A stretch of 64,000 nt of DNA, taken from assembly GCF_030812675.1 (NCBI RefSeq), contig NZ_JAUSTE010000002.1, forward strand, positions 186,001 through 250,000, read 5' to 3'. Shown piece by piece: positions 9,029-33,110 of the stretch (its first letter is position 1; every line of letters begins with the position of its first letter). Below the pieces are notes generated by a model that worked only from the letters and a program-made list of their open reading frames with translations, had not been told where the DNA came from and searched no databases. The DNA is from Sinomonas atrocyanea (GTDB taxonomy: Bacteria > Actinomycetota > Actinomycetes > Actinomycetales > Micrococcaceae). The position numbers and the translations under genes were made by a program.

Positions 9029-10939
9029 GTGAACCCCGGCATGCCACAGCGCGCCCCCGTTGACCCCACGGCACCGATCCCGCAGCAGAGCCCGTACTGG
9101 GCCTCCATCGCGCGTCTCGGCCCGATCGTGCGCCCCATCGTGCCGCGCCTCGTGATGGGCCTCGTCGTCGCCCTGGCCGCCTCGGCACTCGCCCTCGCCG
9201 TCCCGCAGGTGCTGCGGCTCGTGATCGACGAGCTGCTCCGCAGCGGAACCCAGCCAGCGGCGGTGTGGGGAGCGGCCGGCGTCGTGCTCGTCCTCGGGGT
9301 GCTCGAGGCGACGATGATCTACCTGCGCCGCGTCCTCGTGATCGAGCCGAGCATCACGCTCGAGCGGCGGATGCGCACCTCCATGTACGACCACCTCCAG
9401 GACCTGCCCGTCTCGTTCCACGACCGCTGGGGCTCGGGGCAGCTGCTCTCGCGGTCCGTCGCGGACCTGGGGTTCCTGCGGCGGTGGCTCGCGTTCGGGG
9501 CGATCTTCCTCGTGGTCTCGATCAGCACGGTGGCCCTCGGCGTGGTCCTGCTGTTCACGCTCTCGTGGCAGCTCGCGCTGATCTTCCTCGCGGCCGCCGT
9601 GCCGATCATGGTCTACGGGGCGATCTTCCGCCGCCGCTTCTCGCTCGCCACCCGGCGCAGTCAGGACCAGGCCGGCGACCTCGCGACCGCGGTCGAGGAA
9701 TCTGTGCACGGCATCCGCGTCCTCAAGGCCTTCGGCCGCGCCCGCGAGGCGCTCGAGGGCTTCACCGAGCAGGCGCGGCACCTGCGCGAGACCGAGGTGG
9801 CCAAGGCCCGGCACCAGGCCCTGTTCAGCCTCGTCGTGACCCTGCTGCCCGAACTCGCGCTCGGCACGGGCCTCGTCACCGGCATCTGGCTCACTGCCGC
9901 CGGGCACCTGAGCATCGGCTCGCTCGCCGCCTTCTTCGCGACGGCCGCGGCGGTCGCGCAGCCGGTCGAGGCCAGCGGCATGCTCGTGGGCATGGCGCTC
10001 ACGGCGAAGACTGCCGTGGACCGGCACTTCGAGGTCATGGATGCCACGAACACGGTGGCCGACCCGGAGCACCCGCGCCACCTCGTCGCCCCCCGCGGCG
10101 AGCTGGCCTTCCGCGGCGTCCGCTTCTCCTTCGGAGCCCCCGGGGCGCCCGACGCCGGCCGTCCGCCCCGGGCCGCCGGCCCACGGTCGGAGGTCCTGCG
10201 CGGGGTGGACCTGCAGGTGCGGCCCGGCGAGACTATGGCGCTCGTGGGCGCGACGGGCTCCGGCAAGAGCACGCTGCTCCAGCTCGTGCCGCGGCTCTAC
10301 GACGTGGGCACGGGCGCCGTGGAGGTCGACGGCGTGGACGTCCGGGACCTCCCGCTGGCCGAACTGCGCCGGCTCGTCGCCGTCGCGTTCGAGGACACCA
10401 CCCTGTTCTCCTCCTCGGTGCGGGAGAACGTGCTCCTCGGCGCCCCCGCCCAGGAGGGCCCGGAGGCGGACGCCGTGCTGGCCGAGGCCCTCGAGGTCGC
10501 CCAGGCCCAGTTCGCGTACTCGCTCCCCGACGGCCTCGCCACCCGCATCGGCGAGGAGGGCCTGAGCCTCTCGGGCGGCCAGCGCCAGCGCATCGCGCTG
10601 GCGCGCGCGATCGCAGCCCAGCCGTCCGTGCTGGTCCTCGACGATCCGCTCTCCGCCTTGGACGTCGCCACCGAGGAGCGCGTGTCCGAGGGCCTGCGCG
10701 CGGCGCTCGCCCACACGACCACGCTCATCGTGGCCCACCGCCCCTCGACCGTGGCCCTCGCGGACCGCGTGGCGCTCCTGCGCCACGGCGTGGTCGAGGA
10801 CGTGGGCACCCACGCCGAGCTGCTCGCCCGCAGCGACCACTACCGCTGGGTCATCGCGAGCCTGCCCGGGGAGCCGCGGGACCTTGACCGGGACGAGGAA
10901 CCGGACCTGGACACCGTCTTCTCCGAGGAGGCCCGATGA
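9029..10939 (+). CDS. ABC exporter half-transporter A (permease-ATPase)
   Basis: This is a 636-residue type IV ABC exporter subunit: six membrane helices in residues about 35-320, then a nucleotide-binding domain. Walker A is GATGSGKST, the signature is LSGGQ, Walker B is [12 protein letters not shown], and the H-loop is AHRPST. The Walker B region has Asp after the LVLDD pair where a catalytic Glu is usual, the degenerate-site pattern of heterodimeric exporters. It overlaps the next gene by 4 nt (ATGA). The start is uncertain between GTG 9029 and ATG 9041. Substrate unknown; drug or lipid export is typical. Confidence 0.9.
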
Positions 10940-12825
10940 GCCGCACCCGCAGCAGCACCTCCCCCCGCCCCGTGCAGCCCGGCGAGCCGGTGCGGGACCA
11001 GGGCGGGCGGGGGACCCGCGGCGAGGACGCGGTGGACCTCACGCGGGAGGCGAGCCGCGCCGTCCGCCGTCGTTCGCTCAGGCTCCTCGGGGACCTCGTC
11101 CGGCCCGTGCGCGGGCGCCTGTGGGCGACCCTCGCGATGGTCGTCGTCTCCCAGGCGTCCCGCGCGGCGGGCCCTGCGATCATCGCCTTCGGGATCGACC
11201 GCGCGCTGCCGGCCCTCGTCTCCGGCGACCCGGCGCAGATGTGGCTCGCCGGGGCGGCGTACGTCGCGGCGGCCCTCGTCACCGGCGTGCTCACCGCCGG
11301 CTACGTGACCTCGACCGCGAAGCTGAGCCAGGCCATGCTCCTGGACCTGCGCGTCTGGGTCTTCCGCCACACGCAGCGGCTGAGCCTGGACTTCCACGAG
11401 ACCTACATGTCCGGGCGCATCATCTCGCGGCAGACCTCGGATCTCGAGGCGCTGCGCGAGCTGCTCGACTCGGGCATCAGCTCGCTCGCCTCCGGCCTGC
11501 TGTTCATGGCGTTCACCGCGATCACGGTCTTCGCGCTCGACTGGCCCTCGGGACTCATCATGCTCGCCGCCGCAGTCCCCATGCTCTTCCTCGCCCGCTG
11601 GTACCAGGTCCGGTCCCAGCGGGCCTACCGCTCCTCCCGGGTCGTCTCGGCGCGGCTGATCGTGCACTTCGTCGAGACGATGACGGGCATCCGCGCGGTC
11701 AAGGCCTTCCGGAAGGAGCGCGCCAACAGCGCCGAGTACGGCCGCCTGGCCGACGACTACGCCGCCGCCACCCAGCGTTCGGTGATGCTCAACGGCGTCT
11801 TCCAGCCGGGCCTCGTGCTCATCGGCAACGTAACCGTGGCCGTGATCCTGCTCGTCGCGGCGTTCCGCGTGCTCGACGGCGGCCTCGCCGTGGGCATCCT
11901 GCTCGCCGTGGTGCTCTCGACCAAGCGGTTCTTCTCACCGCTCGAGCAGATGGCCATGTTCTACAACTCCTTCCAGAGCGCCCAGGCGGCCCTCGAGAAG
12001 GTCTCCGGGCTGCTCGAGGAGGTCCCCAGCGTGCAGCCGCCGCAGGAACCGGTGCCCCTGCCGCACGCCCGCGGCGCGGTCGCCTTCGAGGCGGTCTCCT
12101 TCTCCTATGCGTCCGGGCCCGAAGTCCTGCCCGAATTCACCCTGCGGATCCCTGCGGGCCAGACGGTGGCGCTCGTCGGGGCGACGGGCGCGGGGAAGTC
12201 GACGATCGCCAAGCTCGTGGCCCGGTTCTACGACCCCACCTCGGGGGCGGTGACGCTCGACGGCGTGGACCTCCGGCGGCTCTCGACGAAGGACCTGCGG
12301 CGTGCGGTCGTCATGGTGACGCAGGAGGCCTACCTGTTCTCGGGCTCGGTCGCGGACAACATCGCGCTCGGGCGGCCGGACGCCGCGCGGGAGGAGATCG
12401 AGGCTGCGGCCCGCGCGGTGGGCGCCCACGAGTTCATCGCGGCGCTGCCCGCCGGCTACGACACGGACGTCACCAAGCGCGGCGGGCGGGTCTCGGCCGG
12501 GCAGCGCCAGCTCATCTCCTTCGCGCGGGCCGTGCTGGCGAACCCGTCGGTGCTGATCCTGGACGAGGCGACGAGTTCCCTCGACATCCCGTCCGAGCGG
12601 CTCGTGCAGTCCGGGCTGGCCAGGCTGCTGGGCTCGGGCCCGGGCCGGGAGGCTGGCAGGACCGCCGTGATCATCGCCCACCGGCTCTCGACCGTGGAGA
12701 ACGCGGACCGCGTGCTCGTGGTGGACGGCGGGCGCATCGTCGAGGACGGCTCCCCGGCCGAGCTCCTCGCCGGCGGAGGGCGATTCGCGGCCCTCCACGG
12801 AGCGTGGCGGGACTCCCTCGTCTAG
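10936..12825 (+). CDS. ABC exporter half-transporter B (permease-ATPase)
   Basis: This is the 629-residue partner of the preceding subunit. It has a polar N-terminal extension of about 50 residues, six membrane helices, Walker [10 protein letters not shown], the variant signature VSAGQ, and Walker [12 protein letters not shown] with the catalytic Glu present. Complementary degeneracy (normal Walker B here, altered in subunit A) supports an obligate heterodimer with one active ATP site. The ATGA overlap ensures coupled translation. Confidence 0.91.
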
Positions 12826-12922: not shown

Positions 12923-12999
<77 letters not shown>

Positions 13000-15891: not shown

Positions 15892-15919
15892 AGTGCCCCG
15901 GACCGGAGTCCGGGGCACT
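15892..15919. terminator. Hairpin between repeat-peptide gene and ATPase gene
   Basis: A 12-bp perfect stem (15892-15903 with 15908-15919) closes a CGGA loop. It lies about 80 bp downstream of the peptide gene's stop on the minus strand and would isolate it from the P-type ATPase gene. No T-tract is present. Confidence 0.65.
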
Positions 15920-15999: not shown

Positions 16000-16269
16000 T
16001 CAGAGGCTGCTGCCCGTGGCCTTCATCGGGTCGGGCCAGTTGCCGATCGCGGTGGCCTTCATCGGGTCGGGCCAGTTGCCGATCGCCGTGGACTTCATCG
16101 GGTCGGGCCAGTTGCCGATCGCCGTCGACTTCATCGGGTCGGGCCAGTTGCCGATCGCCGTCGACTTCATGGGATCCGGCCAGTTGCCGATCGCCGTGGG
16201 GGCGCCGGCAACCCCGGACACTGCGAGCGCGCCGCCAAGTGCGAGGGCCGCAATCAGTTTCTTCAGCAT
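16000..16269 (-). CDS. Secreted tandem-repeat peptide precursor (candidate pheromone)
   Basis: This 89-residue protein matches no family I recognise. Residues 1-23 form a Sec signal peptide (LKK, a hydrophobic core, SGVAGA before the likely cut). The rest is almost only five head-to-tail copies of a 12-residue unit, AIGNWPDPMK(S/A)T, at 26-37, 38-49, 50-61, 62-73 and 74-85, then GSSL. Only position 11 of the unit varies. A ribosome-binding AAGGA precedes the ATG at 16269. A divergent XRE-TPR regulator gene begins 210 bp away. This layout suggests a multi-copy signalling-peptide precursor cut after export. A surface-binding or bacteriocin-like repeat protein is the main alternative. Confidence 0.75.
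   Translation of the reverse strand: MLKKLIAALALGGALAVSGVAGAPTAIGNWPDPMKSTAIGNWPDPMKSTAIGNWPDPMKSTAIGNWPDPMKATAIGNWPDPMKATGSSL
16015..16194 (-). repeat. Five 36-bp in-frame tandem repeats
   Basis: Five exact-length copies lie at 16194-16159, 16158-16123, 16122-16087, 16086-16051 and 16050-16015. Copies 2-5 are identical over 29 bp. Copy 1 differs in that block by three substitutions, all synonymous (the codons for Pro-Asp-Pro). Other differences fall in the Ser/Ala-Thr linker codons. Confidence 0.95.
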
Positions 16270-16358
16270 GAGCTTGTCCTTCGTCTTTAGTCCCGTTGGA
16301 AGGTGGGACAGGGTGCGTCTAACTGGGCAGAGCGTGCTTTGTCATGATTGACATTCCC

Positions 16359-16387
16359 AGTAAAATATCTCCCACATTGCCTGTCAA
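16359..16387 (-). promoter_or_regulatory. Promoter of the repeat-peptide gene
   Basis: On the minus strand a perfect -35 TTGACA (16387-16382) is followed after 17 bp by TTTACT (16364-16359). The start site would be near 16352, giving a leader of about 80 nt. A small palindrome, TGTCA-TGAT-TGACA (16340-16353), sits at that start site and could be an operator. Confidence 0.6.
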
Positions 16388-16404
16388 GGAATACCGTCGC
16401 CCTC

Positions 16405-16431
16405 TTGACGGCCCATGATGGATATTAAAGA
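16405..16431 (+). promoter_or_regulatory. Probable promoter of the XRE-TPR regulator
   Basis: TTGACG (16405-16410) points towards the regulator gene, with an AT-rich stretch at 16421-16433 where TAAAGA (16426-16431) is a possible -10. The -35 elements of this promoter and of the peptide gene are back to back, 17 bp apart, and form an inverted repeat GTCAAG...CTTGAC (16383-16388 and 16404-16409). Confidence 0.45.
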
Positions 16432-16479
16432 CAAACGCGCTCCGGTTCACGAGGTTCCGGGCCGGGCCAGGAGGTCATC

Positions 16480-17775
16480 GTGGGGAGTGGATTCGGCGAG
16501 AAGCTGCGTGCCGAGCGACTGGAGCGCGGACTCACTCAGGCCGAACTCGGCAAGGACCTCTACTCGCCCAGCTACATCTCGCTGCTCGAGACCGGGCGGC
16601 GCGAGCCCACCGCGGAAGTGATCCAGGAGCTGGCACGCAGGCTGCAGCTTGCCCCGAAGGCCCTCGAGGCGTGGAGCCAGCCCGTGAGCGCCAACGACGC
16701 GGAGTACGTGCTCGCGGGGCTCTACGCGCGGCAGGCCTGGGACCTCCGCGACTACGCGCAGGCCGCGACCCATGCCGCGACGGCGGCGCAGTTCGCCCTC
16801 GACGGCAAGAACAACAGCGCGTGGTGGAACATGACCTACATGCAGGCCGAGTGCCTCATGAAGCAGGGCGAGCTGGCGGAGTGCCAGCGGATCGTCCAGC
16901 ACCTCCTCGAGCATCCGATCGTCGCCGAGTCGGCCGGCCTCGCGGTGCGCGCGCGCCAGATGCTGGCGGCGGTCTGCCACGGGCTCGGACAGCTCAGCAC
17001 GGCGGTCGAGCACGCCCGGGAGGCGGTGCGGCTCGCGTCCCAGCTTCCCGCGGGGTCCACGATCTACATCGGCGCCCTGCGCGCGCTCATCGGTGCCCTC
17101 GCGGAGAGCGGGAAGCTCGACGAGGCCTGGGAGCAGTGCCGGATCCTCGAGACCCTCGTCGACGAGGAATCCATGGGCCAGCTCGCGGGCGAGATCGAGT
17201 GGGTGATCGGCAACGTCGCGTTCATGCGTGCCGACTACGCCGAGGGCGTCAAACACCACGAGCGGGCCGCCAAGCTCCTCTCCCCCGCCAACGACATCGA
17301 GCTCTGGGCCCGCTTCAACAAGGCCTCGGCGGCCGTGCGGCTCTCGGGCGGCATCATCGAGCCCGAGACCCTCGCGGCGATCGAGCGCGCCGAGCTGGCC
17401 CTGAGCATCGTGGGCGGCTCGCGCTCGGAGCAGCTTGAAGTGAGCTTCATCCGTGCCCGGTGGCTGTACCTCAACGGCCAGATCCCGGAGGCCATCGAGC
17501 TCCTGCGCACCATCCACGCCGAGAAGGCGGTGCTCGGCCGCCACACCGCCGGGGAGGTCGCCCTCCTCTACGGCCGGGCGCTCAAGGCGCTGGGCCGCAA
17601 CGACGAGGCCCTCGAGCTCCTCGCCGACGCCCGTGAGCAGTTCAGCTACGCCGGGGCCTCGGACAAGGTCCAGCAGGTCATGGACGCGATCCTCGAGATC
17701 CGGCTCGCCACCCAGCGCGCCGCGAAGGAGTCCTCGGCCGGGGCCAAGGCCCCCGCGAAGGACGGCGTCAGCTGA
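16480..17775 (+). CDS. XRE-HTH / TPR regulator (RRNPP-like)
   Basis: This 431-residue protein has an N-terminal Cro/CI-type helix-turn-helix (about 7-62: LRAERLERGLTQAELGKDLYS, SYISLLETGRREP). It is followed by an alpha-solenoid of about eight TPR-like repeats over residues 75-410, for example AGLYARQAWDLRDYAQAATHA, AVCHGLGQLSTAVEHAREAV and ALKALGRNDEALELLADA. The architecture and length resemble NprR/PlcR/Rgg (RRNPP) receptors, which bind imported peptides in the TPR groove. AGGAGG at 16469-16474, 5 nt before the GTG at 16480, fixes the start. It is divergent from the repeat-peptide gene and overlaps purC by 8 bp tail to tail. Peptide sensing is inferred. Confidence 0.8.
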   Translation: MGSGFGEKLRAERLERGLTQAELGKDLYSPSYISLLETGRREPTAEVIQELARRLQLAPKALEAWSQPVSANDAEYVLAGLYARQAWDLRDYAQAATHAATAAQFALDGKNNSAWWNMTYMQAECLMKQGELAECQRIVQHLLEHPIVAESAGLAVRARQMLAAVCHGLGQLSTAVEHAREAVRLASQLPAGSTIYIGALRALIGALAESGKLDEAWEQCRILETLVDEESMGQLAGEIEWVIGNVAFMRADYAEGVKHHERAAKLLSPANDIELWARFNKASAAVRLSGGIIEPETLAAIERAELALSIVGGSRSEQLEVSFIRARWLYLNGQIPEAIELLRTIHAEKAVLGRHTAGEVALLYGRALKALGRNDEALELLADAREQFSYAGASDKVQQVMDAILEIRLATQRAAKESSAGAKAPAKDGVS

Positions 17776-18682
17776 AGGCGCGGCCGGTGAGCCGCTCGTA
17801 CGCCTCGATGTAGCGGTCCCGGGTGCGCCCGACGACCTCGGCCGGCAGGGCCGGCGGCTCCTGCCCCGAGGCACGGTCCCAGCCGGACTCCGGGGATGTG
17901 AGCCAGTCGCGCACGAACTGCTTGTCGAACGAGGGCTGCGCGTGCCCCGGCTCCCAGGTGGCCGCGTCCCAGAAGCGCGAGGAGTCCGGGGTGAGCACCT
18001 CGTCGCCGAGGGTGATGTACCCGGTGGTCGGGTCGACGCCGAACTCGACCTTGGTGTCCGCGAGGATGATCCCCCGCTCGCGGGCGATCCGCTCCGCCTC
18101 CCGGTAGATCTCGAGCGTGAGGTCGCGCAGCTGCGCCGCGGCCTCGTCGCCGACCATGCCCGTGACGTCCTCGTAGGTGATGTTCACATCGTGCTCGCCG
18201 AACTCGGCCTTGGCCGAGGGCGTGAAGACCGGCTCGTGGAGGCGGGACCCGTCAACGAGGCCCGGAGGCAGCGGGATCTCGCACACCGTTCCGGACTCCC
18301 GGTACTCGGCGAGGCCGGAGCCCGTGAGGTAGCCGCGGGCAATGCACTCGACCGGGTACATCTCGAGCCTGCGGCAGACCATGGCGCGCCCGGCGACCTC
18401 GGCGGGAACGCCGTCGTCGACCGTCGCGGCCACCACGTGGTTGGGCACGTTGAGCTGCTCGAACCACCACAGGCTCAGCTGGGTGAGGATCCGGCCCTTG
18501 TCCGGAATGGTGCTCGCGAGGACGTAGTCGTAGGCGGAGATGCGGTCGCTCGCGACGACGAGCACCTGGTCCGCCGGCCCGTCGACGGGCTCGTACAGGT
18601 CCCGGACCTTGCCGGAGTAGATGTGCCTCCAGCCCGGCAGCTCGAGAACCTCGGCGGAGAACCCTGCCTTGTCGATGCTCAT
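17768..18682 (-). CDS. purC: SAICAR synthetase
   Basis: PurC is phosphoribosylaminoimidazole-succinocarboxamide synthase. It joins CAIR and aspartate with ATP in de novo purine synthesis. The 304 residues include SGKVRDLYE at the nucleotide-binding start, VASDRISAYD, ECIARGYLTGSG, and DTKVEFG with TLGDEVLTPDSSRFW. The length is typical of the longer bacterial/actinobacterial form. The ATG overlaps the purD stop (ATGA, 18679-18682), giving a purD-purC operon. Confidence 0.97.
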   Translation of the reverse strand: MSIDKAGFSAEVLELPGWRHIYSGKVRDLYEPVDGPADQVLVVASDRISAYDYVLASTIPDKGRILTQLSLWWFEQLNVPNHVVAATVDDGVPAEVAGRAMVCRRLEMYPVECIARGYLTGSGLAEYRESGTVCEIPLPPGLVDGSRLHEPVFTPSAKAEFGEHDVNITYEDVTGMVGDEAAAQLRDLTLEIYREAERIARERGIILADTKVEFGVDPTTGYITLGDEVLTPDSSRFWDAATWEPGHAQPSFDKQFVRDWLTSPESGWDRASGQEPPALPAEVVGRTRDRYIEAYERLTGRAFS

Positions 18683-32672: not shown

Positions 32673-33110
32673 GGCTCTCCTCGCACCACCCTTGAGCACG
32701 ACGGCGCACTCCGCCGCCCGTGCCCCTTGAGCGCGACGGCGCTGGTCTGCCTGGCACTGAGCCGGCCGGCGCCGTCGTATCCACTCCCGGGCCCCCGGAC
32801 GCTTCGAGCGACCGGGGGCCCGGTGATGCATTGACCGCCCCTCCCCCTCCGTTTCGGGTACGCATCTCGTCGCCGATCCGGCGTTCCGGGTACGCATCTC
32901 GTCGCCGATCCGGCGTTCCGGGTACGACAGCAGTGATGCAGTGCCGCCGTCACCGAGGGGCAGGGAGGCGAGGGGCGGCCTCGTGCGTCCGCTCCGCGCA
33001 CCCGGAATGCGCAGAACCCGACGAGATGCGTACCCGAGACGGGCAGAACCCGACGAGATGCGTACCCGAAACGGGTGGACGGGAGGGCGGCCCGGAGCGG
33101 GGTGGGCGGG
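32673..33110. other. 438-bp convergent intergenic region with repeats
   Basis: There is no gene in this stretch. It holds two imperfect copies of CCTTGAGCrCGACGGCGC near 32690-32745, then two tandem 32-bp repeats at 32851-32926 (with a third partial copy) and their inverted counterparts at 33011-33074, listed separately. Confidence 0.8.
32851..33074. repeat. Inverted arrays of a 32-bp repeat (GGGTACGCATCTCGTCG family)
   Basis: The left arm, 32851-32926, holds two full copies and a 12-bp third start of a unit beginning GTTyCGGGTACGCATCTCG, period 32 bp. The right arm, 33011-33074, holds two tandem copies in the opposite orientation (CGACGAGATGCGTACCCGA), also 32-bp period. The arms can pair across 84 bp. 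The same core recurs at 47536-47632. Confidence 0.85.

Follow-up and report, generated by a model that had tools for sequence, protein, structure and literature searches.

What does a small, apparently secreted protein built largely of near-identical repeats do beside a divergently transcribed regulator, and is the pairing of the two genes a property of one genome or of a lineage? The question is raised by a locus in a 64,000-nucleotide stretch (hereafter, the window) that covers positions 186001-250000 of contig 2 of a 4.12-Mb Sinomonas genome (Micrococcaceae). A first-pass annotation had described here an 89-residue open reading frame (ORF) with a signal peptide and AIGNWPDPMK(S/A)T repeated five times, together with a divergent, 431-residue regulator of the XRE-tetratricopeptide repeat (TPR) type at a distance of 210 bp. 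The coordinates and sequence of the former are confirmed, and ORFs and Pfam matches agree on the latter. In our opinion, the two genes are likely to constitute a peptide ligand-receptor system that follows an RRNPP-like logic. This is the best reading because the pairing with a precursor is conserved, while the corresponding signal-peptide controls are near zero.

The gene pair

The following features define the pair:

16000..16269, minus strand: peptide precursor ORF, 89 aa (ORF call; conserved in the genus and the family)
16201..16269, minus strand: predicted signal peptide, residues 1-23 (MLKKLIAALALGGALAVSGVAGA; sequence inspection, predicted cleavage site)
16015..16194, minus strand: five 12-residue repeats AIGNWPDPMK(S/A)T, residues 26-85, with the conserved core (I/V)GNWPDPM
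15892..15919, minus strand: perfect 12-bp inverted repeat 3' of the precursor, a terminator-like stem without a T run
16480..17775, plus strand: XRE-TPR receptor-like regulator, 431 aa (ORF call and Pfam)
16492..16671, plus strand: XRE helix-turn-helix (HTH), residues 5-64 (Pfam)
16678..17712, plus strand: TPR domain, residues 67-411, the part common to a class of HTH-less receptors (hhalign)

The precursor consists of MLKKLIAALALGGALAVSGVAGAPT followed by three copies of AIGNWPDPMKST, two copies of AIGNWPDPMKAT, and GSSL. On inspection, its N-terminus is lysine-led and hydrophobic and has an AxA-like end (AGA). Tandem Repeats Finder reports the array at 16014-16199 (period 36, 5.2 copies, 94% match) with a score of 316, the highest among the 13 rows of the window. 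The protein matches no Pfam family above the cut-off and no NCBIfam family, and the terminator scan scored no intrinsic terminator. The regulator starts with GTG, which is preceded by AGGAGG at 16469-16474, so that the start codons of the two divergent genes are 210 bp apart. Its HTH is recognized by HTH_31 (9.5e-12) and HTH_3 (2.2e-11), and TPR_14, TPR_12, and TPR_19 match above the Pfam cut-off.

Conservation of the pair and selection on the precursor

The regulator is found in all 15 genomes of the genus, own genome included, at 90-100% identity, and next to each of them lies a divergent signal-peptide ORF with one to six copies of the IGNWPDPM type; at locus L010 these are one intact copy and one degenerate copy. 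A second set, the named loci, comprises the best 80 of 296 relatives from a scan of GTDB contigs with the XRE-TPR receptor alignment, A1. Their titles name Sinomonas, Arthrobacter, Paenarthrobacter, and Pseudarthrobacter. All 80 homologues face a divergent precursor with one to six copies, which contains GNWPDP in every case, GNWPDPM in 76, and IGNWPDPM in 60. In 69 of the 80, WPDP(M/V/A) occupies the exact C-terminus; a motif in this position is a feature of known pheromone propeptides.

The third set samples the family: 197 genomes drawn evenly from a larger group, with at most eight candidates scored per genome. A receptor match was obtained in 107 of these genomes, and from the list of matches we took the 133 receptor places with an E value under about 1e-25; they include three broken genes, each represented by a single piece or by joined pieces. 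An antisense ORF of 14-170 aa was accepted as a precursor if it started less than 500 bp upstream of the receptor, or no more than 60 bp inside it, and carried xxWP after a limited set of residues; the signal-peptide class was delimited by a simple hydropathy rule, namely a hydrophobic stretch after an early K or R. An ORF conforming to the rule is present at 110 places, and one with a signal-peptide-like N-terminus at 91 (L275 and L284 are doubtful). At a further 11 places, a short ORF lacks a leader but carries the motif at the C-terminal end or close to it, which brings the places with a precursor to 102. The signal-peptide class arose at none of the 133 places on the other strand and in 17 of 2660 dinucleotide shuffles. 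Thus, the proposal that such precursors lie divergent from XRE-TPR genes is borne out in all three sets, with signal-peptide controls near zero.

The second line of evidence is codon variation. Among 217 GNWPDP copies of 80 precursors (79 named and that of the window), the synonymous difference (pS) of the core is 0.54 when copies within a precursor are compared; the residues are kept and the codons vary freely. The nonsynonymous difference (pN) of the core is zero by construction, as copies were chosen by their residues, and for this reason comparison of whole precursors is the only fair test. Whole-precursor pN/pS for ungapped pairs of equal length is 0.154 (19 pairs), and 0.161 in the nine pairs without a common species. 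The precursor is under protein-level selection, and the pair is real.

Two receptor classes and one kind of peptide

Receptors were classed by their match to the HTH of the window protein. This assigned 126 of the 133 places; seven without a match to the window protein were left out, for some of which we think that a longer overlapping ORF was taken instead. The XRE-TPR class has 77 places, 40 with a signal-peptide precursor, 9 with a leaderless one (by a stricter rule), and 28 with none. The TPR-only class has 49 places, of which 48 have a signal-peptide precursor and one has none. Absence of the HTH in the latter class was judged from the window-HTH match and, for two proteins, from Pfam; the TPR models of these two fall below the Pfam cut-off, and both proteins align to the TPR part of the window regulator. 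TPR-only receptors are about 345 aa long, and A3, a profile of sixteen of them, aligns with A1 over columns 67-411 at 46% identity (hhalign, E 7e-104). Residues N245, N280, and R287 do not vary in A1, nor do their counterparts N184, N219, and R226 in A3. Of the 48 TPR-only precursors, 36 end exactly with the motif and 30 contain a single WP; across the relatives, up to eight motif copies occur per precursor.

The receptor tree has 114 rows (the 133 places less 13 that are short or broken and six of the seven unclassed). In this unrooted tree, built by a quick method that returned long-branch warnings, each class occupies one side of one branch. Presence of the peptide requires six changes on it when L275 and L284 are scored as present and L098 and L099, under the stricter rule, as absent.

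The motif varies with the receptor clade, taking forms such as GNWPDP, GDWPH, GEWPH, GWWPN, NNWPL, and GLWPY. GNWPDP is found in groups g1, g9, and g19, GIWPN in g18, and GNWPDA, GNWPDS, GNWPDG, or GNWPN in g28 and g29. Groups g17 and g30 have GDWPH and GEWPH, g15 has repeats of GNWPD or GNWPA, and the only g24 precursor carries WIWPD. Leaderless forms have GDWPH or VNWPF in g10 and GDWPD or GNWPD in g32. The TPR-only class displays GWWPN, DNWPN, DDWPH, GNWPY, NNWPF, GLWPY, NNWPL, and others. Two TPR-only receptors, L107 (G197:C1:1954926-1957499) and L108, follow one another in tandem, and each faces a separate divergent WP precursor; the motifs of the two precursors differ, being DNWPN or DDWPH in one and GNWPD or GNWPG in the other.

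Receptors that lack an HTH are faced by precursors of the same type as those that have one, which leaves the TPR domain as the partner that accompanies the peptide throughout. It is chiefly on this ground that we regard the WP peptide as probably a TPR ligand.

Unlinked forms and relatives beyond the family

Eight unlinked GNWPDP sites (L136-L143) were opened out of a longer list. Six of the eight have an in-frame short ORF and two have none; the ORFs with the motif (L136-L141) are mostly leaderless. L136 has four copies of IGNWPDPM without a signal peptide, L140 is likewise leaderless, and L141 has a signal-peptide-like N-terminus. The leaderless unlinked ORF L137 (G132:C3, 3024-3230, minus strand) combines two motifs: IGWWPN, which is that of the TPR-only precursor in the same genome (L105), and IGNWPDPM, which is that of its XRE-TPR precursor (L065). 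The single regulator type proposed in the first-pass annotation is therefore not upheld: there is an HTH-less TPR class with WP precursors of its own, and leaderless and unlinked forms exist.

Beyond the family, a scan of 297 genomes of the order found full-length relatives in a single family (f17), at four places spread over three genomes, and a scan of 296 genomes of the class added three genomes, whose matches cover most of the length at E below 1e-20. The divergent signal-peptide ORF of L239 (f17) contains GGSWPT three times, that of L240 (f17) ends in DTWPA, and that of L256 (f54) ends in NWPKCC; no signal-peptide ORF with a WP motif was found at L241, L260, L255, or L257. Phage records yielded zero receptor matches. 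Thirty-two plasmid records, all from Streptomyces, Embleya, or Kitasatospora, match at 27-48% identity, the 48% matches spanning the HTH only; the sole plasmid locus opened (L254) has no WP precursor.

The intergenic element

Two features lie between the start codons:

16348..16387, strand not assigned: TTGACA-N6-GTAAAAT-N15-TGTCAA, a conserved candidate operator with overlapping promoter elements
16339..16366, plus strand: sigma-70-like promoter TTGTCA-16-TAAAAT, directed towards the regulator (a match to the consensus, not proof of a promoter)

The full element, with a -35-like TTGACA on either strand, is present in the window and in 79 of the 80 named loci, and a shorter form, TTGAC-N30-GTCAA, in all 80. 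By eye, kindred elements, often TTGACAACAATTGTAAA, are seen upstream of the receptors of g18, g19, g28, and g29, and another upstream of the only g24 receptor with a precursor; the upstream region of g10 and g15 loci appears different from the dyad pattern. The sole promoter scored in the window points at the regulator. In genera other than Sinomonas, a TACAAT-like -10 of the precursor can be seen by eye to overlap with the dyad, and we therefore lean towards peptide-relieved repression as the sign of regulation. Autoregulation of the locus through the dyad is what we infer from this arrangement.

Neighboring genes and other features of the window

9029-12825: pair of neighboring genes for ABC exporters in which membrane and ATPase domains are fused, at a distance of 3-7 kb from the precursor
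17768..18682, minus strand: purC (SAICAR synthetase; PF01259, 3.2e-76), which marks the locus and lies outside the signaling pair

A gene for purC is found within 3 kb in 78 of the 80 named loci, and the remaining two (L165 and L221) end at contig ends. A P-type ATPase lies within 3 kb on the precursor side in only 3 of the 80. The neighbors scanned, a subset of the ORFs, were the ABC exporter pair, the P-type ATPase, purC, and an asparaginase-II protein; no enzymes that modify ribosomally synthesized and post-translationally modified peptides (RiPPs) were detected among them.

Two further observations concern the window at large. A tRNA-Pro (CGG) at 12923-12999 is overlain by spurious ORFs. 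An apparent array of regulator sites lies at 32850-33075, where a unit of about 20-32 bp (CGGGTACGCATCTCGTCG) recurs in direct and inverted orientation; the flanking ORFs resemble what we take to be ureidoglycine aminohydrolase and hydroxypyruvate isomerase.

Interpretation and alternatives

As a ligand-receptor pair, the locus would work as follows. The precursor would be exported by the Sec pathway and its signal peptide removed, and extracellular proteases would free a short peptide around (I/V)GNWPDPM in several copies. An oligopeptide ABC importer would return it to the cell; the genome encodes three extracellular binding proteins of SBP_bac_5, a family that includes oligopeptide-binding members. 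Inside the cell, the peptide would bind the TPR solenoid of the cytoplasmic regulator, and the bound regulator would alter its grip on the 16348-16387 dyad and hence transcription of the precursor, which would result in a feedback loop tracking cell density. Cleavage, uptake, binding, the sign of regulation, and a wider regulon are steps that we infer from sequence.

Several results weigh against this reading. The first concerns homologues that have no precursor. The pairing put forward in the first-pass annotation stands, but 31 of the 133 family places have no precursor of either kind by the automatic rule. Nine places with XRE-TPR paralogues in the genus of the window (L021 with L034, which are one gene, L022, L023, L025, L026, and L028-L031) have no WP precursor. 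In genus group g24, 9 of 10 places (L087-L089, L093-L095, L097, L106, and L264) have none though the regulator is kept; purC adjoins all five of those nine loci that were tested. An individual case is L265 (g10), where the leaderless ORF stops before the motif, so that the GIGDWPH present in the closely related L098 and L099 is missing; this truncation is either a natural loss or an assembly difference. The second result is the control for ORFs of any kind, which is high (23 of 133 places on the other strand and 649 of 2660 dinucleotide shuffles); because of this, it is motif conservation alone that argues for the leaderless class.

The remaining adverse results concern specificity, regulon, and ancestry. 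In an analysis of covariation between receptor residues and peptide with phylogenetic pairing (94 rows), none of the sign tests listed was significant. No regulon beyond the locus is visible in the dyad search of the own genome, because the dyad occurs there once. For its GTAAAAT-to-TGTCAA part, no second site has two or fewer mismatches and one site has three, which equals the single site of the reversed-pattern control; the left half gives two matches (with one and two mismatches) vs two in the control. The top matches of the XRE-TPR profile are designed pentatricopeptide repeat proteins and not RRNPP receptors, and A3 reached no RRNPP receptor in the PDB at E 1.

Four other explanations were considered. 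In the first, the WP peptide is still the TPR ligand, but it is sensed inside the producing cell, the receptor serving as a sensor of export or translation. The leaderless ORFs with a C-terminal or nearly C-terminal motif that face 11 of the 133 receptors fit this explanation, as do the leaderless unlinked forms L136, L137, and L140. The signal peptide at 91 places (two doubtful) would, however, be needless, and secreted leaderless communication peptides are reported from Streptococcus pyogenes (PMC10518010); we regard intracellular sensing as unlikely.

The second explanation makes the repeat product an extracellular effector (antimicrobial, surface, or metal-binding) and the XRE-TPR protein merely its transcriptional regulator. 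A secreted, repeat-rich product and a dyad confined to this locus speak for it. It does not account for the TPR proteins without a detected HTH, 48 of 49 of which are paired with a precursor of this kind, for a motif that follows the receptor clade, or for the commonness of single-copy forms (the 30 TPR-only precursors with one WP), and we consider it improbable.

The third explanation, a multi-core RiPP-like modified peptide in which the repeats are the cores, draws on the near-identical cores in tandem and on the ABC exporter pair 3-7 kb from the precursor. Set against these are the lack of a tailoring enzyme among the neighbors scanned, the unconserved ATPase side of the locus, and a Sec-like signal peptide in place of a RiPP leader, so that it appears very improbable. 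Finally, chance or an annotation artefact, to which the opposite strand of the tandem repeat, likewise open (ORF 16016-16351, plus strand), could point, is contradicted by protein-level selection and by recurrence with divergent DNA, and deserves next to no credence.

The ligand-receptor reading admits a broader, more tentative extension, to which we give somewhat less than even chances. The Micrococcaceae may possess a peptide-signaling superfamily of their own, with outposts in at least one other family of Micrococcales and perhaps beyond, that is not a branch of the Firmicutes RRNPP systems. It would combine one TPR fold, with or without an HTH, and one WP code, the ligand coming from polyproteins that are exported through Sec and hold as many as eight copies, from minigenes without a leader, or from unlinked orphan genes, one of which encodes the ligands for the two receptor classes present in that genome. 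If this is true, the GNWPDP core of the XRE branch at the purC locus would be an interspecies signal, since it is common to four genera, and the TPR-only branch would vary by genus. Conserved pairs of precursor and receptor on the chromosomes of common soil genera, found family-wide, would give the Actinomycetota an additional signaling language, and about 90 signal-peptide pairs in one family would make a rare comparative set for the specificity of TPR-peptide recognition.

Comparison with known systems

Passages of PMC10075063 describe intracellular peptide quorum sensing through TPR receptors as a trait of Firmicutes and actinobacterial signals as typically small molecules; those mentioned in passages of PMC4748050 are gamma-butyrolactones and cyclic or modified peptides. 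No description of TPR-receptor peptide signaling in Micrococcaceae was found in titles and abstract beginnings of open-licence PMC articles, and the WP motif strings had only unrelated occurrences in open-licence PMC text. Recurrence of the pair across the family suggests an as yet undescribed peptide language of actinobacteria.

The RRNPP criteria given in passages of PMC10075063 are a propeptide of 10-100 aa, SEC secretion, a receptor of 250-500 aa with TPRs, and directly adjacent genes. The precursor of the window has 89 aa, with longer relatives of 123 (L083), 140 (L133), and 164 aa (L272), and the hydropathy rule indicates SEC secretion at 91 of the 133 family places. The receptors are 431 aa long in the window and about 345 aa in the TPR-only class, and TPR models match the window regulator above the Pfam cut-off. 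Adjacency holds in the window, in the 80 named loci, and, with leaderless forms, at 102 of the 133 family places. On each of these points the locus of the window agrees with the RRNPP definition.

The closest resemblance is to PlcR-PapR, in which an XRE HTH is likewise followed by TPRs and the gene of a secreted propeptide is adjacent; PapR is the exported and matured peptide of PlcR. PlcR is also the only RRNPP receptor that gives a long match to A1 (residues 3-207, i.e., the HTH and part of the TPRs; E 6e-7), which weakly suggests homology of the receptor to the RRNPP family. The Sinomonas-type system differs in its occurrence in Actinobacteria, its WP core, its up to eight copies, and its divergent gene order. 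Rap-Phr, an HTH-less TPR receptor with a secreted propeptide, is paralleled by the HTH-less class with its short secreted propeptides that mostly end in the motif. However, the TPR-only profile has no Rap match in the PDB, and in the unrooted tree a single branch connects the TPR-only class with XRE-TPR proteins of its own family.

For the repeats, the nearest counterparts are Phr3T and Phr105, propeptides of Bacillus phages with duplicated pheromones. In passages of PMC11343458 these have more than one pheromone copy per propeptide, freed by extracellular proteolysis; the Bacillus cases described there are duplications and pseudo-repeats vs up to eight copies here. The leaderless forms recall the leaderless communication peptide (LCP) and RopB of Firmicutes, where, according to PMC10518010, a short leaderless peptide is sensed by a receptor. 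They differ from it in ending in or near GDWPD, GNWPD, GDWPH, or VNWPF, and in that their receptors belong to the same family as those of the signal-peptide forms. Viewed against these systems, the parts of the Sinomonas locus appear ordinary and their conserved arrangement extraordinary, and, by analogy, the whole would work in an RRNPP-like manner.

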